Below are positions 13,212 to 40,532 of a stretch of DNA of 64,000 bases, in pieces; positions within the stretch are counted from its first letter, which is position 1, and every line of letters starts with the position of its first letter. Below the pieces are notes generated by a model. The model did no database searches and was not told where the DNA came from. It saw only the letters and a program-made list of their open reading frames with translations. Location of the stretch: the NCBI GenBank assembly GCA_028285465.1, contig JANQPD010000076.1:1-64000 (forward strand), written 5' to 3'. Made by a program: the position numbers and the translations under genes. Source of the DNA: Owenweeksia sp. (GTDB taxonomy: Bacteria > Bacteroidota > Bacteroidia > Flavobacteriales > Schleiferiaceae).

Positions 13212-13340
13212 ACTAATCTATTTGTTATCTCCTCATTTAAAAGAAGGAGAAATTTAACATTTAATTAGCCTCTAAGAAAAGTTTTGTTAAAAAATTAACC
13301 GCAAAAAGGACTAGCGCATTGCTTTACAGACAAATACACT

Positions 13341-13931
13341 TTACTTAAGCTTTTGCCAGGGTTTGTATATAGCTGAGTTTTCGGGCCTGTTTTCTTCTTT
13401 TTTCAACAAGGGCGTACATTCTTTCAGGCTTTCGAAACACTCCCGGGGAAGTTTTTGATATAGTTTAGTGCCCTCTGTTTTCCAGGCAATCATTTCATCG
13501 CTTAGCTGTTTTACGATCTTAGCCGGATTGCCCACTACCAGGCTACGCGGGGGAATCTTTGTTTCTGCCTTGACAAAAGAAAGGGCGCCTACAATGGATT
13601 CTTCTCCCAGTTCTACATTGTCCATAAGCACGGCATTCATACCTACCAGGCAATTCCTGCCGATCTGTGCTCCGTGTATAATGGCCCCGTGCCCGATATG
13701 CGCAGACTCCTGCAAGGTGATCGAAACACCGGGAAACATATGAACGGTACAATTCTCCTGCACATTACAGCCGTCTTCGATGGTGATGCGGCCCCAATCC
13801 CCGCGTATAGCGGCTCCGGGCCCCACGTATACATCCTTGCCGATGAGCACATCTCCGATCACCGCAGCGGTTTTATGAATAAACGAACTGGGGTGGATCA
13901 CCGGCTTTATGCCTTTAAACTCGTAAATCAT
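13341..13931 (-). CDS. paaY: PaaY, left-handed beta-helix thioesterase / carbonic anhydrase-like
   Basis: This 196-residue protein is built of hexapeptide repeats (IGDVLIGKDVYVGPGAAIRG onward) forming a left-handed beta-helix trimer. Histidines in VHMFPG, SAHIGHGAIIHG match the zinc ligands of the gamma-carbonic anhydrase/PaaY family. PaaY hydrolyses 2-hydroxycyclohepta-dienecarboxyl-CoA, a dead-end product of phenylacetate degradation, releasing CoA. The length equals PaaY (about 196-200) and exceeds YrdA-type proteins (about 170-180); the C-terminal helix with ECFESLKEC is PaaY-like. Together with paaJ and paaI nearby this favours PaaY over a generic gamma-carbonic anhydrase. Confidence 0.85.
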   Translation of the reverse strand: MIYEFKGIKPVIHPSSFIHKTAAVIGDVLIGKDVYVGPGAAIRGDWGRITIEDGCNVQENCTVHMFPGVSITLQESAHIGHGAIIHGAQIGRNCLVGMNAVLMDNVELGEESIVGALSFVKAETKIPPRSLVVGNPAKIVKQLSDEMIAWKTEGTKLYQKLPRECFESLKECTPLLKKEENRPENSAIYKPWQKLK

Positions 13932-13978
13932 GGTTTCGATGCTTTAGCATAAGTTCGTTGAATCGAGAAGCTATTGGT

Positions 13979-14584
13979 TTAGCTCCTGTATTTATCGTTT
14001 AACCCGAGGCCTTTTTCCAGCAGTCCCATTGCTTTTTGCAATCTGCGTTCTTTGGTAGCTTGTTGCTTCGCGCTTTCAATGTGTTCTATGTACTCCCGTT
14101 TTTTATAATCCGTAAGGCCCTCAAACGTTTCTTGTGCACGCGGGTTGTTTTCCAGTGCTTCATTTAAAAGCGCAGAGTGCTCGTACTTACCGGAACGCTG
14201 ATTAAAGCCCTGTACTTGTTCTCCTGTTTCATTTTTCTCTACGGCTTCCAACACCAGGTCGCGAAGCGCGGTTTCGTTGAGCATTTCCGGGCTGGTAAGT
14301 ATGTATTTACGCATAGATTTGGTGTCTTCCGAAGAAGCTTCCAAGACGCGGTGCTTATCCTGCAATAAGGCCCCTTTATGAAACCAAATGGCCGCATGGT
14401 TTTTAAACGCTACCAGGGTAATCATCACTCCTTTATACTCCAATGAGGGCGCTCCCCATTTTATTTTTTCTTCGATTTGTGGAGCGGTGCCTTTGATCAC
14501 GGCATACGCCTTCATTAAAATTGGGTGCGCGAGAGTCCCTTCTATATGCTTAAAATAAGCGCTTACTGTTTTGGGTTTAGGCAT
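13979..14584 (-). CDS. YdeI/OmpD-associated family protein (DUF1801 plus OmdA-like tail)
   Basis: This 201-residue cytoplasmic protein has an N-terminal DUF1801 fold (about 1-120, with EEKIKWGAPSLEYKGVMITLVAF and a HAAIWFHKG block) and a C-terminal helical bacteriocin-protection segment typical of YdeI (about 130-190: LLNEALENNPRAQETFEGLTDYKKREYIEHIESAKQQATKERRL). Proteins of this family have been linked loosely to stress or peptide tolerance, but the biochemical role is unknown. It sits between paaY and paaJ on the same strand; nothing ties it to phenylacetate metabolism, and it looks like a passenger. Confidence 0.8.
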   Translation of the reverse strand: MPKPKTVSAYFKHIEGTLAHPILMKAYAVIKGTAPQIEEKIKWGAPSLEYKGVMITLVAFKNHAAIWFHKGALLQDKHRVLEASSEDTKSMRKYILTSPEMLNETALRDLVLEAVEKNETGEQVQGFNQRSGKYEHSALLNEALENNPRAQETFEGLTDYKKREYIEHIESAKQQATKERRLQKAMGLLEKGLGLNDKYRS

Positions 14585-14622
14585 ATGTATATGATTTTAA
14601 GTTCTCTTCCCACCTTTTTCGT

Positions 14623-15831
14623 TTACGCCCTTTCCAACACTACTGCATACCCTTGTCCTACTCCAATGCACATGGTACAAAGGGCATATCTTTTCCCGCT
14701 TTCCAGCAGTTGAAGAGCTGCCGTTTGCAAAAGCCGGGCGCCACTCATTCCCAGCGGGTGCCCAAGGGCGATGGCCCCTCCATTGGGGTTAATGCGCGGA
14801 TCGTCATCGGCCAGGCCCATTTTACGTGTACAAGCCAGTACCTGGGCGGCAAAGGCCTCGTTGAGCTCCAGCACATCCATATCTGCCAGGGTAAGCCCTG
14901 CTTTTTTAAGGGCAATCTCGCTTGCATATACCGGGCCTATACCCATAACACGCGGTTCTACACCTGCCACGCCCATAGACACCATACTGGCCATAGGCTT
15001 TAAACCGTGTGCCTTCATACCTGCCTCAGAGGCTATCAGTAGAGCGCCTGCTCCGTCATTCAGGCCGGAGGCATTTCCTGCTGTTACCGTGCCTCCTTCT
15101 TTCCTGAAAGCCGGGCGTAGCTTAGCCAGCACTTCCGTGGTGGTGTTGGGGCGAATAAACTCATCCCGGTCAAACACCAACGGGTCTTTTTTTCTTTGCG
15201 GGATGCGCACCGCTGTAATTTCTTTTGCCAGCCTGCCGCTCTCTTGTGCTTCAGTAGCTTTCTTCTGGCTCCAGTACGCAAACTTATCCTGGTCTTCGCG
15301 GCTAATCCCGAATTGATCTACCAGGTTTTCTGCTGTTTCGCCCATCGCGTCTGTACCAAAACGCTTGAACATTTCGGGGTTTACAAAACGCCAGCCGAAG
15401 CTGCTGTCGTACATTTTTGAATCTGTACCGTAGGCCTTGCTCGGTTTACTCATTACGTAAGGAGCCCTGGTCATATGTTCTATTCCCCCGGCTACAAACA
15501 CCTCCCCATCTCCGTTCCGGATGGCGCGCATGGCTTGTGCACCCGCGCTCATCCCCGAAGCACAAAGGCGGTTCACGGTTTCTCCGGGTACGGTAAAGGG
15601 CAGGCCTGCCAGCAGCAACGCCATGCGCGCCACGTTGCGGTTGTCTTCTCCGGCCTGGTTGGCGCATCCCATTATTACATCGGCAATAGCGGAGGGGTCC
15701 ATAGAGGTATTGCGAGCCATTAACTCCCTGATCACGTGAGCGGCCAGGTCATCGGCCCGTACGGCCGACAAGCTGCCTCCAAAATTGCCTATGGGGGTGC
15801 GTACGGCATCAACAATATATGCTTCTTTCAT
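14623..15831 (-). CDS. paaJ: 3-oxoadipyl-CoA / 3-oxo-5,6-dehydrosuberyl-CoA thiolase
   Basis: This 402-residue thiolase has all active-site residues: nucleophile C90 in NRLCASGM, H358 in GGAIALGHPLGMSG and acid/base C388 in CTMCIGVGQG. It releases acetyl-CoA from 3-oxo-5,6-dehydrosuberyl-CoA and again from 3-oxoadipyl-CoA at the end of the phenylacetate route. The GIEHMTRAPYVMSKP and FGWRFVNPEMF segments are typical of the PaaJ/PcaF branch rather than acetoacetyl-CoA thiolases. It lies 20 nt downstream of paaI in the same operon. Since no other aromatic-ring genes are present, PaaJ is preferred over PcaF. Confidence 0.9.
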   Translation of the reverse strand: MKEAYIVDAVRTPIGNFGGSLSAVRADDLAAHVIRELMARNTSMDPSAIADVIMGCANQAGEDNRNVARMALLLAGLPFTVPGETVNRLCASGMSAGAQAMRAIRNGDGEVFVAGGIEHMTRAPYVMSKPSKAYGTDSKMYDSSFGWRFVNPEMFKRFGTDAMGETAENLVDQFGISREDQDKFAYWSQKKATEAQESGRLAKEITAVRIPQRKKDPLVFDRDEFIRPNTTTEVLAKLRPAFRKEGGTVTAGNASGLNDGAGALLIASEAGMKAHGLKPMASMVSMGVAGVEPRVMGIGPVYASEIALKKAGLTLADMDVLELNEAFAAQVLACTRKMGLADDDPRINPNGGAIALGHPLGMSGARLLQTAALQLLESGKRYALCTMCIGVGQGYAVVLERA

Positions 15832-28577: not shown

Positions 28578-29885
28578 TTATAAGGTCAGGCCCAAAGCCA
28601 GGTTAAACATATTGTAGTTGGGGCCACGGTTCTCTTCAAAAAACGGATTTAGGTCATAAGAGGCCGTTACCTTAAAGGCATTCCACCCTACCTGGGCCAT
28701 AAGCCCGTATCGATAGCGGGTGGTAAAAAAGTCATCATAAGCCTTTTCCTCCAACTCCCTGAAATCATTAGTAGTGTATTCCAGCTCCCGCTTGGCCACC
28801 ATCCTGATGCCTCCGTAGCCTCCTAAGCCCACTGTAAAAGATTCATCCGTTTCACCCACTTCGCTAAAATCCATTTGAAACATGACCGGGATATTAAAAT
28901 AAGAAATGTAATACTTGCTCTTATTGAAATTGGTCACATTGTTCCTCTCTTCAAATACAACCCCGGGGTTTAGGGAATCCTGGCTGAGTGCAAGTACATG
29001 GTTGTCGGTTAACCTGAAGTTGTGCGCACTCATTTCAAGCCCGTATTTTATGTAAAACTTGCTGAACGGGTTGCCTAGCCTGCTTTTCCATCCAAAGCCA
29101 ATAGCGAATGAAGTTGACCTCCAGAAATTAAGTGCTTGCGGGCCGGTAGAGGGAAGGGCACTGCTCCCATCTACCAATTGCTGGTTAAAGCCAAGAAAGT
29201 GGATGTCCAAATAAGCACCGGTCCGGTGAATCTTTTTATTCTCCGGTTCATCATCGGTATCTTCCTGATCAAAGCGTAAGGCGAAGGGTTCTTTGCTTCC
29301 GTTTTTCCTCTTGATGATAATGCCGTCTTCATTAATGATAACCGTTTTATTGCTATCTGTATCCATAACCACGGGAGGAGGGGTAGGCTTCATTCCCGGC
29401 AAAGGAGGCAAAGGAGGCATGGGAGGCACGGGCTCCCCGGCTTCCGTACGGGCTTCCATTTCCACTTCCCAGGCTTCCATTTTCGTTTCATAGGCTTCGG
29501 CCCAGGCTTCCCAGCGCGCTTCATAGGCTTCTCCCCAGGACTCCATAACGTCTTCCAGCATTTCGCCGCTGTCTTCGGCTCTTTCATTGGCCTGTTCTTT
29601 CAGCTCCTCCGCCTCTTCGCGGGTAATGTCGCCTGCGGCTAACTGCCGATCGATACGCTCCAGTGTTTCTGCCCTTTTCTTCTCTATTTCGGCTGCCTGT
29701 TTGTATACATCCGCTATAAGCTTATTCAGGTCTACCCCTATGAGCTTAGAGGGATCATCTGCTTCTATGATGATCTTTTTTCCCTGGATCTCAATCTCTA
29801 CCTCTTCTTTATTTTCCTTACCCGTAGGTTGACTGATGGCGGCAAATGCTCCGAGCATTGCCAATACACACATTGCTTTTTTCAT
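28578..29885 (-). CDS. Outer-membrane beta-barrel protein with Trp/Glu hendecad helix
   Basis: This 435-residue protein begins with a Sec signal (MKKAMCVLAMLGAFAAISQ). A periplasmic part follows: a charged helix about 55-150 that includes three 11-residue repeats (ESWGEAYEARW, EAWAEAYETKM, EAWEVEMEART), then a Pro-rich break (PPMPPLPPLPGM). From about 210 to the end, alternating aromatic and polar strands (FAIGFGWKSRL, YISYFNIPVMFQMDF, FTVGLGGYGGIRM, NMFNLALGLTL) and a final hydrophobic strand fit an outer-membrane porin-like barrel. It is the last gene of a four-gene unit with an ECF sigma factor, an anti-sigma protein and a lipoprotein carrying the same repeat. I infer a sensing or envelope-linking role; a pore function is also possible. 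Confidence 0.8.
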   Translation of the reverse strand: MKKAMCVLAMLGAFAAISQPTGKENKEEVEIEIQGKKIIIEADDPSKLIGVDLNKLIADVYKQAAEIEKKRAETLERIDRQLAAGDITREEAEELKEQANERAEDSGEMLEDVMESWGEAYEARWEAWAEAYETKMEAWEVEMEARTEAGEPVPPMPPLPPLPGMKPTPPPVVMDTDSNKTVIINEDGIIIKRKNGSKEPFALRFDQEDTDDEPENKKIHRTGAYLDIHFLGFNQQLVDGSSALPSTGPQALNFWRSTSFAIGFGWKSRLGNPFSKFYIKYGLEMSAHNFRLTDNHVLALSQDSLNPGVVFEERNNVTNFNKSKYYISYFNIPVMFQMDFSEVGETDESFTVGLGGYGGIRMVAKRELEYTTNDFRELEEKAYDDFFTTRYRYGLMAQVGWNAFKVTASYDLNPFFEENRGPNYNMFNLALGLTL

Positions 29886-29906
29886 TGTCTTCTGTTTTAG
29901 TGTTGT

Positions 29907-30401
29907 TTATTTTGGTTCCGTTGTTTCTTCTCTTTTTTCTGCTCTTTCTGCTGCTTTCTCCAGGTCATGGGCCAGCTTCTCCGCCCATTCGGCTACTCCT
30001 TTGGTTAGGCGCAAAGATGTTTCTTCTATTTCATCCGCATACTCGTCAGCCCAGGCCTCTATTTCTTTTGCGTACTCGTCTGCCCAGGCTTCTACTTCAG
30101 GGCCATTCTTTTCGCTCCACCTTTCCAGTGCGTCAGCCGAACGCTGCAGTTGTTTCTCAATATACCTGAATAGGCTATCGCGCCTGGCTATACGTTCGTC
30201 TTTTGAGAGGCTGTCCAGGCTTTTCCTTTCCCTGCGCAACTCTTCATGGATCTCATCCGTCCACTCCTTCATTTCATCCCGCATCTCCGCCAGTTCTTTT
30301 TTGAGTGCCTCTTGTCGTTTTCTTTCCTGCTGGGCATTTTGGTTTTGGCCGCAGGCCCAAAATGTGCCACACAAAATGGTCAATAGCCATACTTTTTTCA
30401 T
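29907..30401 (-). CDS. Trp/Glu/Ala-rich helical lipoprotein
   Basis: This 164-residue protein has a lipoprotein-like signal ending at C17 (TFWACGQNQ) and then is entirely charged helix. It contains two exact-period 11-residue units, EAWADEYAKEI and EAWADEYADEI, near residues 106-127, with further related WAEKLAHDLEKAAERAE. The unit shares E-A-W-A-x-x-Y with the repeats of the barrel protein encoded 21 nt downstream. No known family is recognised. It probably forms an elongated periplasmic coiled coil anchored in a membrane. It lies between the anti-sigma and the barrel genes and is likely part of the same device. Confidence 0.75.
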   Translation of the reverse strand: MKKVWLLTILCGTFWACGQNQNAQQERKRQEALKKELAEMRDEMKEWTDEIHEELRRERKSLDSLSKDERIARRDSLFRYIEKQLQRSADALERWSEKNGPEVEAWADEYAKEIEAWADEYADEIEETSLRLTKGVAEWAEKLAHDLEKAAERAEKREETTEPK

Positions 30402-30419
30402 CTTACGGTTGATTCGTTA

Positions 30420-31184
30420 TCAAAAAATTTTATCCAGGTTGATCTCCAGTTGAGGTTTTCCTTTAGGCGCTTCCGGCAATTCAAGGCCCTTGCCTGCCTT
30501 AAGGTTGTTGAACTGGTTATTAGCGTAGGCAAAGATCTTATCCTTAAGGTCTTTTTGCTTTTCTTTTTGGGCCTGTGTTTCTGCTGCCCAATCCCCGGAA
30601 ACGGGTCGGGTGTAACGCAATTTAATGCTTACTTTAGGCTTATCTAATTCTGCCACACGTGCAGGGTTTAAAGCAACCTCTTCCAATGCCGGCATGTTTT
30701 CTTGGGCAAAGCTTTCTTCCCACTCTGCTTCTTCATATACATAGCTTCTCAGGTTGCCCCCTGTACTTCCTCTCTTTAGTACGGGTACGCTTTTTTTCAC
30801 CGGTTTGCCTGCCTTGGTTTTGTTTCCCGTTTTTTTAGTTGGCTCCTCCTTTTTACCGGGCTCTGTTTTGTTTGGCTGGGCAGCGCCTGCAGAAGGTGGT
30901 GTATCGTTTCCACTCCCCGGCTTATCCGGCTGTACGCTTATGCCCTTTTCGCCCTGTGGCGTACTAATGCTTTCTTCATGGTTGTAGAAGTAGAGCAAAC
31001 TACTCAGCCCGATAAGCAGCGTTACGGCTGCCGCACGCAACAAATGCCCCGGCCTTAGTCCGGCACTTGCTCCTTTGCTTTGCGTGGCCGCTTCTATTTT
31101 AGTCCAGGCTTTTTCGCTTGGTTCTATGGAGTGCTCTTCCAACCCTTGCCTGAAGAGCTCATCTATGGGATGCTTGTCACTCAT
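30420..31184 (-). CDS. Anti-sigma factor-like single-pass membrane protein
   Basis: This 254-residue protein has a cytoplasmic N-terminus (about 1-46; DELFRQGLEEHSIEPSEKAWTKIEA is typical of Bacteroidota anti-sigma N-termini) and one membrane helix about 48-66 (LLRAAAVTLLIGLSSLLYFY). A Lys/Pro-rich periplasmic stretch of about 70 residues and a C-terminal region without a barrel follow. Its ATG overlaps the ECF sigma gene by 4 nt, the usual arrangement for a sigma/anti-sigma pair. It should hold the sigma factor at the inner membrane until an envelope signal arrives. Compared with the right-hand locus it lacks the fused barrel, which is a separate gene here. Confidence 0.8.
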   Translation of the reverse strand: MSDKHPIDELFRQGLEEHSIEPSEKAWTKIEAATQSKGASAGLRPGHLLRAAAVTLLIGLSSLLYFYNHEESISTPQGEKGISVQPDKPGSGNDTPPSAGAAQPNKTEPGKKEEPTKKTGNKTKAGKPVKKSVPVLKRGSTGGNLRSYVYEEAEWEESFAQENMPALEEVALNPARVAELDKPKVSIKLRYTRPVSGDWAAETQAQKEKQKDLKDKIFAYANNQFNNLKAGKGLELPEAPKGKPQLEINLDKIF

Positions 31185-31747
31185 GATTCTTTGTATAGTA
31201 ATTCGTTCTGTTCTCCTAATTTATTCTGTAACGCCTTGCGCGCTTTGCTTAACTGTGATTTCGAAGTATTCTCCGATATCCCCAGCATTTCCCCTATTTC
31301 CCGGTGCGTATACCCCTCGATGGCATATAGGTTAAAAACTGTTTTATACCCTAAGGGTAAGGCATCGATCAACCGCATTAAATGTTCTGCATCTTGCTTG
31401 TTATTTACATCCTGATGCGAAAAGCTACGGTGGTTTTCTTCTTCAACTTCTACAAACAGGTTTTTTTGGTAGCGGATATAGTTTAAGCTTTCGTTTACCA
31501 TTATACGCTTTATCCACCCTCCCAGGCTGCCCGACCCCTGGTATTGGTCTATTTTATTAAACACTTTGATAAAGGCATTGGACAATACTTCTTCTGCATC
31601 TTCCAAACTGCGCACGTACCGTCTGCAAACACTCAGCATCCCCGCTGCATATTTGTGATAAAGCTCACGTTGTGCCTTGGCATTTCCACGCCTGCATTGC
31701 TTGATGAGCTTTTCTTCGTTTGTTGGTAAGTGTAACAGTTTACCCAT
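31181..31747 (-). CDS. ECF sigma-70 family factor
   Basis: This 188-residue protein has region 2 (REL YHKYAAGML... EVLSNAFIKVFNKIDQYQG, core about 24-90) and region 4 with helix-turn-helix GYTHREIGEMLGISENTSKSQLSKARKAL near 140-170. It has no extra domains. It directs RNA polymerase to envelope-related promoters, probably including its own. Overlap of 4 nt with the anti-sigma gene supports a pair. A TATCTTTG element lies 34 nt before its ATG. Confidence 0.92.
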   Translation of the reverse strand: MGKLLHLPTNEEKLIKQCRRGNAKAQRELYHKYAAGMLSVCRRYVRSLEDAEEVLSNAFIKVFNKIDQYQGSGSLGGWIKRIMVNESLNYIRYQKNLFVEVEEENHRSFSHQDVNNKQDAEHLMRLIDALPLGYKTVFNLYAIEGYTHREIGEMLGISENTSKSQLSKARKALQNKLGEQNELLYKES

Positions 31748-31781
31748 TTTTGGTGGCTGTATGTTAAAGACACTCTTAAAA

Positions 31782-31789
31782 CAAAGATA
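31782..31789 (-). promoter_or_regulatory. Candidate -7 element (TATCTTTG) of the left sigma-factor operon
   Basis: Exact TAnnTTTG on the minus strand 34 nt before the sigma gene ATG at 31747. It matches the housekeeping consensus, so the operon may have constitutive basal expression. Confidence 0.45.
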
Positions 31790-31898
31790 GGTTGCCCGGG
31801 GTTAAAAAAATTTTAACCCTTTGATTGACAGGCAAAAAATTAATCCCTGATCAGGTAACAAGCAGGCCTGGTTAAAAGTGTTCGTACTTCTCTATCCC

Positions 31899-31935
31899 AA
31901 AATAAAAATCCCGGCCCTTTGCAGGGGCCGGGATT
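31899..31935 (-). terminator. Rho-independent terminator of the first T9SS protein gene
   Basis: AATCCCGGCCC (31907-31917) pairs with GGGCCGGGATT (31925-31935), followed on the minus strand by a T-rich run. It separates the secreted-protein gene from the left sigma operon. Confidence 0.85.
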
Positions 31936-31959
31936 CCGGGAAATAGGTAATATATAGTA

Positions 31960-34275
31960 TTACCGGGTTATGTTCAACTTGTATGTCTCGTGAGTGGTTT
32001 TAACAAAGTATATACCACTTTGGTATTCGTTTAGCTCGAGCTGTACGGTTCCCTTAGCAGGAATGAGGAAGCGCTTCACCAGTTGACCATTCATACTATA
32101 CAGACTTATTTCTTCCCGATGGTTGCTCAGGGACTTCAACTGTACCACATCGCGGGCAGGGTTCGGGAACATCTCCAGGGTAGGCACACCACTGCGCTGC
32201 TCCACCAGGCTAAAGGTGGCCTGTGCTTCAGTAATTGCATAATTGGTGTGGATGGGCTGTTGAAAGTCAAAGTAAATGTAGGCATCGTTGCTTACCTGTT
32301 CCCCATCTGCCAGTGCCGCTGCTGTATTGATGCTGAAACGCAAGCCCCCCTGGCTGCCTTCCAGGTCTGTGGTGCTATCAGGTAGCAGGATGTTGTCAAA
32401 GGTAAAAATGGCTACTTTATTATCCTCTATACGCACTTCGTATTCATGCGTAGCCCCGATCATCCTGAAGCTTTCCACATCCAGTTTTGAAGAAAGGGTA
32501 TCTACGATCACCACCTTATAAGCCGTGTCGTTGCCCGTGTTCTGAAAGCGGATGTAGTAATCCAGGGCAAGGGCTATCCCAGGTTGTGTAAACTCAATGT
32601 TTACCTGCTTATCGTTAGGGTCGTACGCAGCACGCACTTCCTGGTGTATGTCTTCGGTATTGTTACTCAGGTCGGCATCATTGCCAAAGCCAATCAACCT
32701 GGCTTGTAAGTGGAGCGTATCGCCCACATTGTTCGTGCTGGTATCTACTTCCAGCTCCACATTAAAATGATCTTTATCGAAACTGTTCATAGCGCCCAGG
32801 GTCCAGGATAGGGTGTTGCCATTCACCGTAGCCGTTGGGTTGGTGCTTACCAGGTTCACGCTGGCCGGAATATCCAGCTCCAGGGTACCCCCTGCAGCAA
32901 CGGGCAGGCCTAAGTTAGACACCACTACATTGTAATTTTCCGTAAACCCAAAGCGCGCTCTCCAGGCGCTTATTACATGTACAGAGACATCTTCAACGCT
33001 GGCCAGGCTTGCCCCTACATTATTTGTAGAGGTTGAGGCTGCAGTTAACGTAAAACCAGGCAAGCTGCAACTCGCGCTCACATTTGAGGAGACCTGGTCT
33101 ATTGAGGTAACGGAATTGACGGTATAGGTACCCGGGGCGAGGTTTACGGAATACATACCATTTTGATCGGTGGTAGCAATGGTGCCATCACTGAAATGCA
33201 CCGCCATACCTGGCACGCCTTGTTCGCCGGCGTTCAAGAGACAATCCTGATTGGCGTCTAAGAATATCGCGCCGTCTGCAAACGAAAAGCCCGCCAAGGT
33301 GCGGTAGGCACTGTTGTAGTTTACGCCGTTATATGTGGCCTGGTTACTAAACCCGTACAACTCCCCCTGGAATACAAGCATATTCAGGTTTCTGGGGGCC
33401 TGGGTAATGGTGCTTATCACGTTCCCGTCAAACTTGGCCATCGCCAAATTACCGGCAGTAGCCCCGTTAGAAATATACACCTCTCCATTATACACCTCGG
33501 CATCGCGCATATTGAGGCCGGTGTTTCCTTCAAAAATAGCCGTACTGCCCGACATTCTCAGGATTTCGCTGTTTGTAAATATGAGTAAGTCTCCATTGTA
33601 TTCCAGCAGTTTACGCGTGTTTTGACCTGGAAAAAGAGTACCGCCTGTTAGTGTGGTAATCGGGTTTACCCAGCTTCCGCCCGAAAGTTTAAGTATGTTC
33701 ACCGGGCCTGTTATGCTATTGGAGTCCAGGGCACCGGCTATATAAAGCTCTCCGTTGTAGTACAAAGCATCACTTATTCCCGCTGTATTGGTTGCCGGAG
33801 TGGGCAAAACCGTAAAACTGGTACCGTCATACAGGTATCCCCAGTCCCCATTGGAAAAACTTCCGTGTATCAGGAGCTGTCCGTTTACACCAAGCGTTTG
33901 CCAAACATCTCCCGTACTGGGCAGGCTTAAGGTACTCCAGGTGCTTCCGTTAAAATACTTAATGCCTCCGTTATAATAAGAGAAATAAGGTATTCCGTTT
34001 ACAGCCGCCGCACCGCTTATATACTGCAAATTAGAGGCGGTATATGAGGGATACGCACTCCAACTGGCTCCATTCCATACTTCTGTGTGAAAAGTGGTCG
34101 TTTGGTTTACGTTGTCGTAATCCCCATAGCTCACTGCTATGGAGCCTCCGATCTCGTACGCGATAGGAACATACGATACGGAGTTGGAAAGCCCCGAACC
34201 CACCTGGTTCCAGATCTGCCCAAAGCCCAGTAGGGTAAGTAGGCTAAGTGCACTTGTTAGTAGTAATTTTTTCAT
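31960..34275 (-). CDS. T9SS-secreted protein with propeller-like, SdrD-B-like and DUF7619 domains
   Basis: From ATG 34275 (longer frame to 34344 rejected because MKKLLLTSALSLLTLLGFGQ is a clean signal) the product is 771 residues. The N-terminal half repeats NG-x-W and YNG-x-L/D elements as in a beta-propeller. A carboxypeptidase-regulatory/SdrD-B-like domain follows (GAIFLDANQDCLLNAGEQGV), then two Ig-like domains. One of these matches DUF7619 (AYDPNDKQVN ... IRFQNTGND ... YIYFDFQQPIHTN). A type A T9SS sorting domain closes it (MFPNPARDVVQL ... GIYFVKT). It is a tandem paralogue of the next gene upstream and ends at its own terminator. Confidence 0.88.
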   Translation of the reverse strand: MKKLLLTSALSLLTLLGFGQIWNQVGSGLSNSVSYVPIAYEIGGSIAVSYGDYDNVNQTTTFHTEVWNGASWSAYPSYTASNLQYISGAAAVNGIPYFSYYNGGIKYFNGSTWSTLSLPSTGDVWQTLGVNGQLLIHGSFSNGDWGYLYDGTSFTVLPTPATNTAGISDALYYNGELYIAGALDSNSITGPVNILKLSGGSWVNPITTLTGGTLFPGQNTRKLLEYNGDLLIFTNSEILRMSGSTAIFEGNTGLNMRDAEVYNGEVYISNGATAGNLAMAKFDGNVISTITQAPRNLNMLVFQGELYGFSNQATYNGVNYNSAYRTLAGFSFADGAIFLDANQDCLLNAGEQGVPGMAVHFSDGTIATTDQNGMYSVNLAPGTYTVNSVTSIDQVSSNVSASCSLPGFTLTAASTSTNNVGASLASVEDVSVHVISAWRARFGFTENYNVVVSNLGLPVAAGGTLELDIPASVNLVSTNPTATVNGNTLSWTLGAMNSFDKDHFNVELEVDTSTNNVGDTLHLQARLIGFGNDADLSNNTEDIHQEVRAAYDPNDKQVNIEFTQPGIALALDYYIRFQNTGNDTAYKVVIVDTLSSKLDVESFRMIGATHEYEVRIEDNKVAIFTFDNILLPDSTTDLEGSQGGLRFSINTAAALADGEQVSNDAYIYFDFQQPIHTNYAITEAQATFSLVEQRSGVPTLEMFPNPARDVVQLKSLSNHREEISLYSMNGQLVKRFLIPAKGTVQLELNEYQSGIYFVKTTHETYKLNITR

Positions 34276-34356
34276 GATGCTGATAGTATTGATTAAACAT
34301 GGGTTTATCCCCTCCCCATATACTAAGACGAACGCCTGTTTCAAAACGCTGCATGT

Positions 34357-34391
34357 TCAAAAAAAAACCGGCCTCTTTTACAAGGCCGGCT
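34357..34391 (-). terminator. Rho-independent terminator of the right sigma-factor operon
   Basis: CCGGCCT (34368-34374) pairs with AGGCCGG (34383-34389) and is followed on the minus strand by nine T residues. It closes the sigma/anti-sigma-barrel/T9SS unit. Confidence 0.85.
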
Positions 34392-34412
34392 TCCCTCAAA
34401 TGAAAAAACAGG

Positions 34413-36815
34413 TTACCGGATCACGATCTTATGCGCAGATCTTTCAGATCGAATAAAGTATATCCCCCTGGGCAGGCGTTCAATTTCGAGCAGGTGGTCT
34501 TTTTCATGCTCTTTTATCTCAAAGGCTTTTACCGGCTTACCGTTTACGTCAAACAGGGTAAATGTAGCCTTGCCTGTTCCTTTCCATTTTATATAAAGTC
34601 TATCCCGGGCGGGATTCGGGTATACCTCCACCCACTGCTGCAGCGCATTCTCTACCAACGATACATTTTTTACAATGGCCGTTTTGGCGTGGTTCGTATG
34701 GATCGGCTTTTGGTAGTCAAAATAGATCTCCGCATCATTGTCAATGGTATCGCCTATGCCCAGGCTGGGGTTCAAACCTGCTGAAAAACTGATAAAGCCC
34801 TGGCTACCCAGGGAGTCTATAGCGCTATCCGGTAACATGATGTCGTTAAATTCCCATATAAGAATGTTGTTCTGTGCGCTGATGGAATAGGCATGGCTGG
34901 CGCTGTTCATAATAATAGCTGTAACGGGCAGGGTCAGGTCCAGGGTATCTACTACGGTAACTTTTACCGCTGGTGCATTCCCGGTATTTTGAAAGCGGAT
35001 GCGGTAATCGATACGGCTGGTACCCGGCTTGATCTGGGTCGCGCTAGGGGTTTTATCATTGGGGTCAAAGGCCCCTCTTACTTCCAGTTTTAAGGTATCG
35101 GTATTGTTGCTCAGGTCTACATCCCCGTTTATCCCGTTCAGAAGGGAGACCAAAGAAAGGGTGTCGCCCAGCTTATTGCCTGCGGTATCCGTTCTCAACT
35201 GCAGCTCAATGGTCTTTTCCTCAAACATGGCCAGGCCGTTAAAATTGAAGGAATAGGTATTGCCTGCCACACTGGTGGGTGGCGGTACTGCGCTTACAAA
35301 GGTCATGGTGGGCGGTAAGGTGAACTCCACATTTACCAGGCCGCTTATGTCTATACCCGGATTTTGAATCGCAACTTGGTAATTCTGTGTAAAGCCGTAA
35401 AGCGCCACCCCTGCATAAGACGACCCGTCTATCAAGGCATCTATGTCGCCATCGTGCTCCAGTGCAATATTTTGCTGAAGCTGTTGGTTGGCACTAAGGG
35501 CAATAGAGCTAGGCAGGTTGCATGTACTATGCAGGCGCTTATACAAGCGGGAGATACTCAGCGGAGAGTCAAAGCTATACACCCCTGCAGGAATTAAGAA
35601 GGAATAATTCCCCGATATATTGCTGGTGGTATGCAAGGAGGTTCCTCCCTGGGAAAGCCCTAATAAAGATGCGGGTAAATGCTCCTCGCCCGGATCGAGT
35701 ATACAGTTCCCGTTCCGGTCCAGGAATACCTGACCACTCATCCGCGCAAAACCTGTATTTGTTGAATACGCATAATTGTAGGGATGAGGGTAGAGCTGGG
35801 GGTCGAACGCCGTATCCCGTGCAAGAAGAAACAACTCATTTGAAGAACCGGAGATATGTCCTATCAGGGCAGGCAGGTTCGATAAACGGTTGATTGTCCC
35901 ATTGTCTACCTGAAAAACCTCGCTTATGCCACTATTTGAAAAGGAAAAGAAGCGCTCAGCACCCAACCGGGCCTGCCCTATAAGGGGGTGGGAGCCCAGG
36001 CTTATGGAGAGGCTATCTCTAAAGAAAATGCTATCGCCATCGATTTCATAAAGAGTTAAGCCTGGCCCTAAGCTCCTTTCTTTAGCCAAAAGCCAAAAGC
36101 TACCACTTTCTTCAAAAAAGGAAACCCCTAAAGAGCTTATTTTACTGAACCCAATGAACATGCTGGCCGGTACTTCCCAATTGTTATTTCTGCGTACCCT
36201 TACGGGGATCGTATCTCCAGACGTAAGATTGCCAAAGGTCCCCGAAGCATATAGTTCCGCATTTAGGAACGAAAGCGCTACAATTGTGTCGAAGCCTAAA
36301 AGGGAAGAGCTAAAGAGGTCCGTAAAAGACGTGCCATTATAAGCCGCCACATTGGTAAGGGAAGGGGCACCACTGCTAAACGGCCCTCCCATGTACAATT
36401 GCCCGTTGGCATAAAGCAGATCCCGGATACTTCCTGAAAAGTCCTGTGCAAAAAGCTTGCTCCAGTTCGTTCCGTTAAACCGGTATACATTTCCTGTATC
36501 TATACCCGAAGAGTAGCTTACATAAATATCGCCCCCGGGAGCCACCTCTATGTCGTACAGTTTTGGTGCCTGCGCCTGCAGGTTAACCGTTGGAAACAAG
36601 CTCCAGCTAAGCCCGTTCCATTTTGAAACAGCAAGGTTGCTATTCGTATCAAGGTAGGCCACATAGAGGTTCCCATTATCCTCTACCGAAACCGGAGTGG
36701 GATTTAACGAACCGCCATAGTCCAAGCCACTCCCTACTTTATTCCATACCTGCGCCACTCCTTGCTGCAGGGCAAGCGCAAATAGTAAAAGAAATATACT
36801 CCTCCTTAAATTCAT
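34413..36815 (-). CDS. T9SS-secreted protein, third gene of the right sigma-factor operon
   Basis: This 800-residue protein starts with a Sec signal (MNLRRSIFLLLFALALQQGVAQ) and shares the plan of its downstream paralogue. It has propeller-like YLDTNSN/FNGTNWS/YNGTSF repeats, an SdrD-B-like domain (GQVFLDRNGNCILDPGEEHL), Ig-like domains with the DUF7619 pattern (GAFDPNDKTPS, IRFQNTGNAP, EIYFDYQKPIHTNHA) and a T9SS sorting domain (VYPNPARDRLYI, GIYFIRS). Its ATG comes 3 nt after the stop of the fused anti-sigma/barrel gene, so both are almost certainly translated from one message. I infer it is a target or a surface partner of that protein. Confidence 0.88.
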   Translation of the reverse strand: MNLRRSIFLLLFALALQQGVAQVWNKVGSGLDYGGSLNPTPVSVEDNGNLYVAYLDTNSNLAVSKWNGLSWSLFPTVNLQAQAPKLYDIEVAPGGDIYVSYSSGIDTGNVYRFNGTNWSKLFAQDFSGSIRDLLYANGQLYMGGPFSSGAPSLTNVAAYNGTSFTDLFSSSLLGFDTIVALSFLNAELYASGTFGNLTSGDTIPVRVRRNNNWEVPASMFIGFSKISSLGVSFFEESGSFWLLAKERSLGPGLTLYEIDGDSIFFRDSLSISLGSHPLIGQARLGAERFFSFSNSGISEVFQVDNGTINRLSNLPALIGHISGSSNELFLLARDTAFDPQLYPHPYNYAYSTNTGFARMSGQVFLDRNGNCILDPGEEHLPASLLGLSQGGTSLHTTSNISGNYSFLIPAGVYSFDSPLSISRLYKRLHSTCNLPSSIALSANQQLQQNIALEHDGDIDALIDGSSYAGVALYGFTQNYQVAIQNPGIDISGLVNVEFTLPPTMTFVSAVPPPTSVAGNTYSFNFNGLAMFEEKTIELQLRTDTAGNKLGDTLSLVSLLNGINGDVDLSNNTDTLKLEVRGAFDPNDKTPSATQIKPGTSRIDYRIRFQNTGNAPAVKVTVVDTLDLTLPVTAIIMNSASHAYSISAQNNILIWEFNDIMLPDSAIDSLGSQGFISFSAGLNPSLGIGDTIDNDAEIYFDYQKPIHTNHAKTAIVKNVSLVENALQQWVEVYPNPARDRLYIKWKGTGKATFTLFDVNGKPVKAFEIKEHEKDHLLEIERLPRGIYFIRSERSAHKIVIR

Positions 36816-36818
36816 GTG

Positions 36819-38210
36819 CTACTTATTTTGCTCGTTTGTAAATCTGTAAATCATGCTCCACGACAAGTTGATGTCCCTTGGTTTCCATTGTACATTATTG
36901 CTTTTGTCAAAGTTCTGTAAATACTGGCGATAACCGGGTTCTACAGCCAAATAAAGGTTTCGGCTCAAGGCATACATAAGGGATAGTCTAAATTGTACGG
37001 AGCCTACGGCACTGCGAAACGCTGTGTTTTCCTGTTCCTCGAGCGTAAGCTGGGTCGGGTTTACTTGTACGGCGTTTTGCCCCAGTAAAAAGCTGTGGTT
37101 GTAAATGGCTTCTCCTCCCAGGCTCCATTTTCCTTTTAAAGGCACCTCGTAGTATACGCTGAAGGGCAGGCTGATAAAAGTGTACTCGTTGCTACCCCTG
37201 TAGTTATATGCAGACACATTGGTGCCGGTGAGGTAATCTATAATGTGCCCGGAGGCGGAGTCGATAAGCGGGATCTTATTGGTTTCATACGCATAATTAA
37301 CTGCTTGCGTAAGCTTGCGGTATTCTATACCTCCCCCTATTTTAAAATGTTTAAATACCCGGTATTTCAGTTCAACTCCCGCGTCAAAACCTATGCCCGG
37401 TTTTACTGCATTGTTTACCGCCTGGCCATAATCAACGTGTGTAGTGGGTGAGTTTGTAACATACCCCTCCGGGGCAAGGTTATAGGTGGCCATAGCAAAG
37501 GCCCGGACTTCCCATCGATAGTTATAGTCCGGGTATGCCTGAGTTTGCTTCTGTGTGCTTTCCTCTAAGGGTATTGGGCTGCCCGCACCGATTTCTTTTA
37601 GTGAAGGAGGAGATAAAGAAAGGCCGGGCAGCCCAAGGTCTTTAGCGGGTATATCGGTTAGCTTACCGGTCTGGTCTGTTTCTTCGAAAGGAGAGGACGT
37701 GGCGCCTGGAAGCTTTCTACCGGGCCCGGCCATTGCGCTGCTCGCTGCATCCTCTTTTTGCGTTGTTGTTTCTTTTTGCTGTGCTTCTATGCGTTCCGGT
37801 GTGAGAGCACCGGCAAATTCTTCTTCAGATCCTTGGCTTTGCGCTATTGTTTCCGAGGGGCTGAGAAGCCGCTCTCCGCTTTGGCTACTTTCCTGTTCTT
37901 CATTTTGCAGCGGTTGTTGAGAAGCCTCTTCATCCTCTATGCTGCGGGCCTTCTTGTTTTCAGAACCTTCCAGTACCGTATTGTTTCCAGGTGGGGTGGT
38001 AAAGCCTTGTGGTTCTTCCTCGCTCCACAACATGGGCACAGCCAGAAAAAGCCCTATGATGCAGGCCGCTAACAGGGCTGCCCAGTACCAACGGTATCTA
38101 TGCCTGGACCGACCGGCATCCAGCATTTGTTCCATATCGGTCCAGGCACCTTCACTTAGAGGCTCCTCGGCTTCCTGTAGTTGTTTTTTTATGTCGTCCC
38201 AGTCGGTCAA
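36819..38210 (-). CDS. Dual-membrane anti-sigma factor fused to an outer-membrane barrel (Dma-like)
   Basis: This 463-residue protein has three parts. Residues 1-38 are a cytoplasmic anti-sigma-like segment (DDIKKQLQEAEEPLSEGAWTDME). Residues 41-62 form a single inner-membrane helix (WYWAALLAACIIGLFLAVPM). About 63-235 is a polar Glu/Gln/Pro/Ser-rich linker. From about 236 to 463 come amphipathic strands (WEVRAFAMATYNLAP, FKIGGGIEYRKLTQAV, FISLPFSVYYEVPL, VQFRLSLMYALSRNLYLAVEPG, LSWSMIYRF) with an outer-membrane barrel pattern. The topology would cross both membranes with one chain, as described for Dma proteins of Bacteroides. It overlaps the ECF sigma gene by 4 nt and precedes a T9SS cargo gene by 3 nt. 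The linker is long enough to span the periplasm. Confidence 0.82.
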   Translation of the reverse strand: MTDWDDIKKQLQEAEEPLSEGAWTDMEQMLDAGRSRHRYRWYWAALLAACIIGLFLAVPMLWSEEEPQGFTTPPGNNTVLEGSENKKARSIEDEEASQQPLQNEEQESSQSGERLLSPSETIAQSQGSEEEFAGALTPERIEAQQKETTTQKEDAASSAMAGPGRKLPGATSSPFEETDQTGKLTDIPAKDLGLPGLSLSPPSLKEIGAGSPIPLEESTQKQTQAYPDYNYRWEVRAFAMATYNLAPEGYVTNSPTTHVDYGQAVNNAVKPGIGFDAGVELKYRVFKHFKIGGGIEYRKLTQAVNYAYETNKIPLIDSASGHIIDYLTGTNVSAYNYRGSNEYTFISLPFSVYYEVPLKGKWSLGGEAIYNHSFLLGQNAVQVNPTQLTLEEQENTAFRSAVGSVQFRLSLMYALSRNLYLAVEPGYRQYLQNFDKSNNVQWKPRDINLSWSMIYRFTNEQNK

Positions 38211-38755
38211 GCCTTTTGTAAATCTTTTATTTGTTTCTGCAGGATCTTTTTTGCGCGGGTAAGTTGCGAGCGGCTGGCGCTTTCACTTATACCCAGTTGT
38301 TTTGCTATTTCCCTGTGGCTATACCCTTCAACCTCGTATAAGTTAAACACCATTCGGTAGCCGTACGGTAAAGCGTTTATTAAATTAAGCAGGTATTGAG
38401 CATCGTGTGCCTGGCCGGCTCCGGGCAGTTTAGCCGGGGCGTATTCTTCAACGGCTCCGTCTACAAGCGGAAGTTTGTTTTTCTTGTTTTCATCCAGGCA
38501 TTCCCGCACCATAATCTTCCGTATCCAGCCTTCAAAGCTGCCTGTATTGCGAAAGCTTGCCAAGTTTTTAAACACTTTATAAAACCCTTTATTCATTACT
38601 TCTTCCGCCAACGAGCGGTTATAGCAATAGCGCATACACACGGCTTTCATCCGAGGGCCAAACCGCTCATATAAAGCGCGCTGCGCATTGCGGTTATTCT
38701 TCAGGCATTCCTTTATTAATGCTTGCTCGTTCTTGTGTTTCTCCTCCAATCCCAA
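38207..38755 (-). CDS. ECF sigma-70 family factor paired with the dual-membrane anti-sigma
   Basis: This 182-residue protein has region 2 (RALYERFGPRMKAVCMRYC ... EVMNKGFYKVFKNLA, about 27-66) with FEGWIRKIM, and region 4 with helix-turn-helix GYSHREIAKQLGISESASRSQLTRAK near 143-168. It is a paralogue of the sigma factor at 31181. An in-frame stop lies just upstream, and no ATG precedes region 2, so the start must be TTG at 38755 or TTG at 38749. Non-ATG initiation implies low expression. Its gene overlaps the anti-sigma/barrel gene by 4 nt. Confidence 0.9.
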   Translation of the reverse strand: MGLEEKHKNEQALIKECLKNNRNAQRALYERFGPRMKAVCMRYCYNRSLAEEVMNKGFYKVFKNLASFRNTGSFEGWIRKIMVRECLDENKKNKLPLVDGAVEEYAPAKLPGAGQAHDAQYLLNLINALPYGYRMVFNLYEVEGYSHREIAKQLGISESASRSQLTRAKKILQKQIKDLQKA

Positions 38756-38870
38756 GGGATTCTACTTTGTAAGACAGAGCGAAAAGCCTGAACGCTGCAT
38801 CCTATAAAAAAATAAATCTTCTCACTTCTGCATGTGCTAAGGTGCTTCGTACACAATGCCATAAGACGCT

Positions 38871-40532
38871 TTAAGTCCGGCTTCCCTCAAAAACGGAAAG
38901 ATAGCTTTCCTCCTCATGCTTTAAAAATGTATAGCCTTGAAATAGCTTTCTGTTGTCTTCCAGTCTATGTGCATAAGCCGTAAGGAGCAAAAAACCCTGC
39001 CCCGGATGTTTCTGTTGATACAGGCTAAGCAATACGAGGTACTCTTTCATGCCGGTGTTTGCCGGAAGCCGGCACGGCATGTTGATATAGTGTACATCCT
39101 GATCCCTGCCGTTTGTTTTTTGTACCATAGCCACATAATTGTAGTCCTGACCCCCTACTTTTTGTTTCTTATGCCGGACCTTGGCTACCCCATAAGATTC
39201 TATATTGTACTTAAGCAAGTAATACAAAACACTTACCCTGTCTATTTCGTCCGCCATAATTACGGGGTTTTTCAACTTCCGGGTTTGGCTTATTTTTTTG
39301 GCTACCGCATCGGGTGTAAATTTAGAAGAGAGGTAGTAGTTGCGGTAAAGGTTCTGTTCCCGCTTTTCAAGCACCAGGTTCTGTATCAGTTTTTGATCGT
39401 TTTGCTCGATTTCGAACAAGCAGGTGCCCAAACTATATAGCGAAAGAATGAGCGCTATGGCCTTTTTTCCCACGCGCTTAATTTCAATAACCTCTGCAGC
39501 CTTGTATACCAGCGTACTGAGCGAAAGTGCAAAAACAGGCGCCAGGCAAACCAGCGTTCTTTCAAAGGGCGCTTTGCCATGCAAGAACACCAATAGAAAA
39601 GTACCAAAGAGCACGTACAAGAGCACCCTTGCTCTAAAAGACAGGCCCGCCCAGGTCTTTTTCCTTTTGCCCGCTATAAATCCTATGCCAACAAACAGGA
39701 GCAAGCCCCAGCGGTTCGAAACAAAATAGGTAAGCACCTTAGGGAGCAATGTGCTTATTGCAAAGGTTTTAGTGGGCGGTTCCTTGGTAACAAACCTATT
39801 GTTCAACACATTTTCCAAGACAGGTAAATAGGCCAGGTAAACCAATAGAAAACCCGTGCCCAATGCCGCCAGCAACCATATGAGGTAACGCCTTGCTTTT
39901 TTCTTCTCTTTCCGGGGGCTTTTTTTAAATTTTGTATACCCTTCCCAACACAGGAAAAGCAAAAAAACAGCCAGTGGGTAAATGTTCGAGGGCAAGGTGT
40001 ACAGCAGCAGAAAGATGCCCGCAAATAGTGCTGCCAGGTGTGCCTGCTTATGGGTATCAAGGTATTTCCAACCATGATATAGGCTCCCAGCCAAAAAAAA
40101 GCCGCTGAGGTTATACCCGCGGAGCTGAAGGGAGAAATTGAGAAAAGGGAGGGTGCATGTCAACAGGAGTACCCCAAAAACCGCATAGGCCGGGTTTGTA
40201 AGTTGCCTTCCCAGCAGGTAAACATATAGCAGGCATCCCAACGCAAACACGGCCTGCAGTGCCCTGTAAAGGGGCAATTGATCCAGCGCCTCATAAAGAT
40301 CTGCAGTGCCCAGCAAACGGGCATACATTCCGTTTAAAAGATTGAAAAAAATGTGGTTATTTGGATCAGGGTAAGAAGTAAGCGTGGTTTTTACCTCAAC
40401 CAGTGCGTAATTTTTAAACGACAGGATCTCATCCCACCAGGCATCTTGATTCAGGTGAAGAAACAACCAATATCCAAAAGGCAACAAGGCTATCGCCCAC
40501 AGTAAAGCGTTTAGCGGTATTTTTTTTTGCAT
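38871..40532 (-). CDS. GT-C type membrane glycosyltransferase (ArnT/PMT-like)
   Basis: This 553-residue inner-membrane protein has about ten to twelve hydrophobic helices and a soluble C-terminal part after about residue 350. The first periplasmic loop carries an acidic DAWWDEILSF, the place of the catalytic aspartate in GT-C enzymes, and SYPDPNNHIFFNLLN follows as in the family. Enzymes of this fold move a sugar from a lipid carrier to lipids or proteins in the envelope. Substrate is not predictable. It is a single gene with no clear partner, about 115 nt upstream of the sigma locus. Confidence 0.75.
   Translation of the reverse strand: MQKKIPLNALLWAIALLPFGYWLFLHLNQDAWWDEILSFKNYALVEVKTTLTSYPDPNNHIFFNLLNGMYARLLGTADLYEALDQLPLYRALQAVFALGCLLYVYLLGRQLTNPAYAVFGVLLLTCTLPFLNFSLQLRGYNLSGFFLAGSLYHGWKYLDTHKQAHLAALFAGIFLLLYTLPSNIYPLAVFLLFLCWEGYTKFKKSPRKEKKKARRYLIWLLAALGTGFLLVYLAYLPVLENVLNNRFVTKEPPTKTFAISTLLPKVLTYFVSNRWGLLLFVGIGFIAGKRKKTWAGLSFRARVLLYVLFGTFLLVFLHGKAPFERTLVCLAPVFALSLSTLVYKAAEVIEIKRVGKKAIALILSLYSLGTCLFEIEQNDQKLIQNLVLEKREQNLYRNYYLSSKFTPDAVAKKISQTRKLKNPVIMADEIDRVSVLYYLLKYNIESYGVAKVRHKKQKVGGQDYNYVAMVQKTNGRDQDVHYINMPCRLPANTGMKEYLVLLSLYQQKHPGQGFLLLTAYAHRLEDNRKLFQGYTFLKHEEESYLSVFEGSRT

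Follow-up and report, generated by a model that had tools for sequence, protein, structure and literature searches.

What does a cell gain by placing, in one tight operon, an ECF sigma factor gene, the gene of a protein predicted to span both membranes, and the gene of a protein secreted by the type IX secretion system (T9SS), and is the secreted protein the output of such a system, the partner of its barrel, or both? This question is raised by a locus of Owenweeksia sp. lying in a window of 64,000 nucleotides, the whole stretch of DNA analyzed here. A sequence-only reading had likened the middle protein to the dual-membrane anti-sigma (Dma) proteins of Bacteroides and had suggested that the secreted protein either gates the barrel or is the main output. 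Dma proteins were discovered only recently, and little has been described of how individual T9SS cargo genes are controlled.

Operon layout, cargo proteins and promoters

The operon runs on the minus strand from the ECF sigma factor gene (sigma1) through the Dma-like gene to the first cargo gene (cargo1), with a 4-nt overlap at the first junction and a 3-nt gap at the second (Table 1); gene order, strand, junctions and coordinates (ORF positions 38755–34413) are as the sequence-only reading gave them. Scored against the general sigma70 families, the region 2 and region 4 domains of sigma1 lie far over the cut-off. Its reading frame does open at the TTG named earlier (38755), but a second TTG at 38749 is suggested as the likelier start, because it better fits both the promoter spacing and the starts in relatives, whose sigma1 TTG codons lie 20–27 nt past the -10 box.

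Table 1. Features of the sigma1 operon and the adjoining cargo2 unit, in order of transcription (window coordinates).
Feature	Position	Strand	Basis
ECF-type promoter of operon, TGCAGC-N18-GTCTTA	38770..38799	(-)	Dyad kept upstream of sigma1 in four relatives
ECF sigma factor sigma1	38207..38755	(-)	Sigma70_r2 and r4_2 above cut-offs; TTG start
Dma-like protein, putative anti-sigma, 463 aa	36819..38210	(-)	ORF, structure model, barrel alignment
Dma residues 1–42, cytoplasmic helical part, presumed sigma-binding	38085..38210	(-)	Predicted helices 4–12, 20–34
Dma residues 43–61, inner-membrane helix	38028..38084	(-)	Kyte-Doolittle 2.39; model helix 37–61
Dma residues 62–228, disordered periplasmic linker, 167 residues	37527..38027	(-)	pLDDT about 30
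Dma residues 229–459, OmpA-type 8-stranded barrel	36834..37526	(-)	VIA-align, Foldseek
Dma residues 313–326, tip of hairpin L2 (IPLIDSASGHIIDY)	37233..37274	(-)	66% pairwise identity
Cargo1: signal peptide, beta-propeller-like N-terminus, Ig-like repeats, DUF7619, type-A T9SS sorting domain	34413..36815	(-)	Domain scans, model
Intrinsic terminator after cargo1	34359..34395	(-)	13-pair hairpin and T run, -20.6 kcal/mol, z -4.4
Second sigma1-type promoter, upstream of cargo2	34324..34353	(-)	Exact match, same 18-nt spacer
Second cargo gene (cargo2), paralogue of cargo1	31960..34275	(-)	DUF7619 and T9SS sorting domain
Intrinsic terminator after cargo2	31905..31937	(-)	

That the third gene product is of T9SS type was borne out by domain scans. 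Cargo1 (800 residues) contains DUF11 and DUF7619 (the latter at E 7.9e-38) together with a sorting domain of type A (PF18962, E 3.5e-11), and the two cargo proteins score 34 (cargo1) and 36 bits against TIGR04183 (cut-off 23); both carry hydrophobic N-terminal leaders, as read directly from the sequence. The Foldseek list for cargo1 is led by integrin-alpha ectodomains (E 3.6e-14), and with TM-scores of at most about 0.3 and a model of moderate confidence we limit the likeness to a propeller plus Ig-like architecture. The genome (G000) encodes the T9SS translocon protein SprA (SprA_N, E 1.7e-159). A second SprA_N match, lying close to the end of a contig in a reading frame of 784 aa, may be another translocon-like gene or a fragment. 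Because the 3.8 Mb genome has about 148 T9SS sorting-domain matches, the presence of a T9SS cargo gene is by itself weak evidence of a link to its neighbors, and such a link must therefore rest on conservation and promoters.

The dyad TGCAGC-N18-GTCTTA precedes sigma1 in the window and in four relatives, with two mismatches in one of them (G023); in a control using regions from the other four genomes, 0/1000 dinucleotide-shuffled sets shared any such dyad. The window holds two exact copies (0.00 expected), before sigma1 and before cargo2; the latter gene, under this promoter type, runs on past the endpoint of the earlier reading (34413) to 31960. A strong terminator separates cargo1 from the second promoter. 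Sigma1, Dma and cargo1, and no other genes, are thus framed by a promoter and a terminator, and cargo2 is a separate unit with a sigma1-type promoter of its own. The promoter ahead of sigma1 suggests that the operon is autoregulated. The surroundings of the block are stable, with rnr at one side and a GNAT gene at the other. Just upstream of sigma1 in the window lies a membrane glycosyltransferase-like gene (38871–40532, minus strand; PMT_2, below cut-off), a look-alike of which has a sigma1-type promoter in the relative G022 (L069, around 6871).

Genome-wide motif work combined a pattern search with the sequence stretches around the sites. The exact pattern occurs four times in the 3.8 Mb genome, once inside a gene; the three extragenic sites precede sigma1, cargo2 and, on contig C20, a 401-aa T9SS sorting-domain protein (33–66 nt ahead of its possible starts). 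A relaxed pattern (WGCAGCR-N17-RTCTTW) gives ten sites, made up of those three, six intragenic ones and one that lies between genes with no gene downstream of it. One-mismatch sites elsewhere in this genome are mostly intragenic and were discarded. In G022, from genus g9, the motif stands ahead of sigma1 and, with one mismatch, of cargo2. There it also precedes the genes of two further T9SS proteins, one of 507 aa and one of 519 aa (33–35 nt before the ATG), a small ORF and the glycosyltransferase-like gene. The 507-aa protein is a homologue of the 401-aa one (E 2e-22), so this target is common to both genera. The T9SS genes among the motif targets are not a base-rate effect, because sorting-domain genes make up about 4–5% of all genes (about 148 of an assumed some 3,300), and the promoter shared by the cargo genes gives direct support to the earlier suggestion that cargo is the main output. 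Among properly placed sites in G003 and G028 the motif is found only before sigma1; the wider regulon is therefore not universal. Six relatives that lack sigma1-Dma have 11 relaxed-motif sites, none of which was found ahead of a T9SS gene.

The Dma-like protein

The Dma-like protein matched no family above cut-off in the domain scan, and its architecture was read from a structure prediction that used five sequences (mean pLDDT 57.9, lowered by the linker; most barrel blocks 70–92). Three parts that had been proposed, an outer-membrane barrel, a single inner-membrane helix and a linker of about 170 residues, are present in the model (Table 1). The barrel was matched by VIA-align to the solved 8-stranded proteins NspA (Z 13.5), OprF (Z 13.4) and OmpA (Z 13.1), and the connections in the strand list, as we read it, are long and short by turns, the pattern expected of eight strands with both ends periplasmic. 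Basic residues ahead of the helix and acidic residues behind it fit an N-in topology. From this layout we infer an anti-sigma role, and the predicted topology would allow signaling from the surface through a single polypeptide, as the sequence-only reading supposed.

Pairwise identity among orthologues is 37% across residues 1–42, 33–53% in the strands and 11% in the linker, and it peaks at the tip of hairpin L2, Dma's most conserved segment. If the topology is right, this tip is extracellular and surface-exposed. Surface loops are usually the most variable parts of such proteins, and the conserved hairpin is therefore a lead towards a conserved surface contact. The idea that the hairpin motif is cargo-specific was dropped, as weaker forms also occur in Dma proteins without a T9SS neighbor. 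Because an 8-stranded OmpA-type barrel offers no evident pore to gate, contact or tension is likelier than gating as the way in which the barrel would work.

Conservation of the three-gene order

The named relatives of this locus come from metagenome-assembled Owenweeksia, Schleiferiaceae and Crocinitomicaceae genomes, which places the window in the order Flavobacteriales. A neighborhood survey found the three-gene order, whose conservation the sequence-only reading had left to be checked, in close and distant relatives and across families. Cargo directly follows Dma in 8/8 close loci, counting the window, a second copy in G005 and G091 from another family of the order. Dma orthologues within the family are about 23–37% identical to the window's Dma. 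The Dma-cargo gaps are 30 nt in G028, 2 in G022, 9 in G003 (6 with a GTG start), 21 in G023, and -4 and 11 in G005. In G091, Dma adjoins a cargo of the same family, with a sigma from a different branch; a domain swap there is unsupported, as the sigma falls into the group of C58-type sigmas (98/98) and the barrel has no clear placement. A further cargo gene in G028 (L068, 13275–15620) is split into two frames (13275–14372 and 14424–15620), likely as a pseudogene or through an assembly fault.

A profile search of genome contigs with four sequences gave only four loci. The class-wide profile search covered 395 genomes and took Dma loci at E up to 1e-10, of which 20 were inspected. Because cargo-linked members were the source of the profile, its counts describe this Dma branch and not all Dma, and part of the gene calls and the sorting-domain profile came from custom scripts that may miss weak cases. 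The gene after Dma belongs to the same cargo family at 12/20 of these distant loci and is another T9SS gene at 5/20 (three type-A and two type-B sorting-domain proteins, the latter just over the cut-off); one locus has a non-T9SS gene next, and two have no same-strand downstream gene. All eight of the same-family cargoes that were Pfam-scanned have DUF7619 and a sorting domain above cut-off, and 9/12 overlap Dma by exactly 4 nt (longest start), like the sigma-Dma junction. The DUF7619 trio is carried by five anonymous families (f53, f68, f70, f72, f74) plus f1 and f5; at the level of gene order, the sigma-Dma-cargo arrangement is thus class-wide. The sigma genes of f68 have a related promoter of their own, TGCAAC-N16-GTCTA. 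Two side observations come from the same loci: the Dma genes of L325 and L331 (f26) are followed by proteins of about 1460 aa whose T9SS sorting domain, of type B, barely exceeds the cut-off, and six f68 loci (L326–L329, L333, L336) have a T9SS sorting-domain protein of about 900–1240 aa directly upstream of the sigma gene.

The coupling has limits. Six relatives (G014, G015, G019, G025, G026, G027) keep an rnr-cargo-sigma2 block without sigma1-Dma, the cargo lying upstream of a second ECF sigma gene, sigma2; the function of the cargo therefore does not need Dma, and this distribution suggests that sigma1-Dma was added to, or lost from, the control of a cargo with a role of its own. The window's genome has five or more further sigma-Dma-like pairs (contigs C58, C62, C47, C61, C21) beside which no T9SS gene was found, so the coupling belongs to one Dma branch. 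C58-type pairs (L075, 5911–9628, and equivalents) have a conserved 250-aa secreted protein as the next gene, and some other Dma genes have lipoprotein-like genes next. Dma branches thus seem to differ in their partner genes, and the trio suggests that they specialize by the genes that adjoin them.

A candidate surface-signaling switch and its alternatives

We consider it probable that the locus encodes a Dma-type surface-signaling switch that controls, as its output, a few surface proteins exported by the T9SS, with the cargo probably also the partner of the barrel. The barrel would anchor Dma in the outer membrane, the flexible tether would cross the periplasm and the helix the inner membrane, and residues 1–42 would hold sigma1. 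Sigma1 would be released when the barrel senses a change in the outer membrane or on the cell surface, perhaps by proteolysis of Dma, or by its tension or unfolding. Freed sigma1 would then transcribe its own operon, cargo2 and at least one further T9SS gene, and the cargo translated next to Dma would be both output and, probably, surface partner, so that the switch could report whether its own cargo has reached the surface. The trio supplies a candidate partner for the Dma barrel, a testable promoter sequence and a short list of targets. A broader version, in which Dma barrels throughout the class are engaged at the surface by the T9SS protein of the adjacent gene and report export success or surface occupancy to the sigma that supplies the cargo, is a more tentative proposal; if it holds, one polypeptide would tell sigma directly of surface-protein delivery, and sigma would top up the T9SS cargo.

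A less likely alternative is that sigma1-Dma controls T9SS cargo purely as output, with Dma sensing a glycan, outer-membrane stress or faulty barrel assembly but never the cargo. Dma2 of Bacteroides thetaiotaomicron has been proposed to be a glycan sensor, and its downstream genes are dispensable for the vesiculation phenotype (PMC13088901). The motif data, too, mark cargo genes as targets without implying contact, and the cargo persists without Dma in the six relatives above. Co-regulation needs no adjacency, yet cargo follows Dma in every close locus and a T9SS gene does so at 17/20 distant ones, the two genes often overlapping by 4 nt. These points count against output alone, as does the predicted surface hairpin, since no other part of Dma is as conserved.

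It is improbable that the barrel is mainly an outer-membrane dock for cargo, comparable to PorP/SprF, with the sigma arm only adjusting supply. The window's cargo is of type A (TIGR04183), a class that in Porphyromonas is covalently joined to LPS of the cell surface. Small 8-stranded proteins of the OmpA-like kind give the best alignments with the barrel, which had no PorP_SprF match in Pfam (E 0.1 threshold), a missing match that does not exclude PorP/SprF. A dock would account for the adjoining barrel and cargo genes and for the two class-level loci that pair Dma with type-B sorting-domain proteins, and docking of type-B cargo on PorP-like barrels is the subject of PMC9143113. That cargo lies beside Dma only through inherited gene order, with no functional link, is strongly disfavored: the neighborhood is stable (rnr, GNAT gene) and cargo is found there without Dma, but the trio is kept where the neighborhood differs, in another family of the order and several families of the class, and another contig, too, has a cargo gene with a sigma1-type promoter in front of it.

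The comparison with Dma proteins made by the sequence-only reading is apt. In B. thetaiotaomicron, Dma1/Das1 and Dma2/Das2 likewise place an ECF sigma gene beside a protein with an N-terminal anti-sigma part, one helix, a long disordered tether and a C-terminal barrel; removal of Dma frees the sigma, and its own operon is among the strongest targets, much as a promoter precedes the operon here (PMC13088901; Pardue 2024 cited therein). The systems differ in what follows: the genes downstream of dma2 encode DUF4943, DUF4858 and enoyl-ACP-reductase-like proteins, and the outputs described are vesiculation and polysaccharide loci, with no mention of T9SS (PMC13088901), whereas here T9SS cargo is both the next gene and the predicted regulon. 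The PorA-PorXY-SigP system of Porphyromonas gingivalis also lets a T9SS sorting-domain protein feed back from the surface to an ECF sigma, but by another route, a two-component relay with the secretion machinery as regulon (PMC7712824; PMC4800418), in contrast to a sigma beside a dual-membrane anti-sigma with cargo as targets. In Flavobacterium psychrophilum, one promoter motif is common to an ECF/anti-sigma pair and T9SS genes (the SM6 ECF regulon), but the targets are genes of the machinery, GldN and PorU among them, and the accessible part of that paper describes no barrel-bearing anti-sigma or co-encoded cargo (PMC9723704). FecR/TonB-dependent signaling, e.g., TfSigG-TfFecR, similarly relays an outer-membrane event to an ECF sigma that controls surface proteins, using separate outer- and inner-membrane proteins (PMC13352502) where one polypeptide is predicted to cross both membranes here.

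The coupling of Dma to T9SS cargo had been put forward as one not known to be described, and we likewise found no report of it in the literature searched, which included few subscription papers (a prior description is possible); there, Dma appears mainly in the context of vesiculation and polysaccharides, and the T9SS genes described as being under ECF control are all machinery genes. Dma proteins themselves are known in Bacteroides, and the T9SS-cargo branch, for which we found no prior report, carries the Dma concept beyond gut Bacteroides, to T9SS-bearing members of several Bacteroidota families.

The window also contains a second ECF module (28578–31747, minus strand), which is kept beside the cargo across the family. 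Besides sigma2 (31747–31181) it encodes an anti-sigma-like protein of 254 aa that has one helix, a small coiled protein and, as a protein of its own, a barrel, and it looks like a "split" relative of Dma. Its promoter type (31769–31796, minus strand) reads GGCAACCT-N3-TTTG-N9-TGTC, with one exact match in the genome; used as a motif control, the sigma2-type promoter gave two sites in the genome, too few to inform. The 254-aa protein has a conserved C-terminal tail, which is QLEINLxKLF-like in several relatives.
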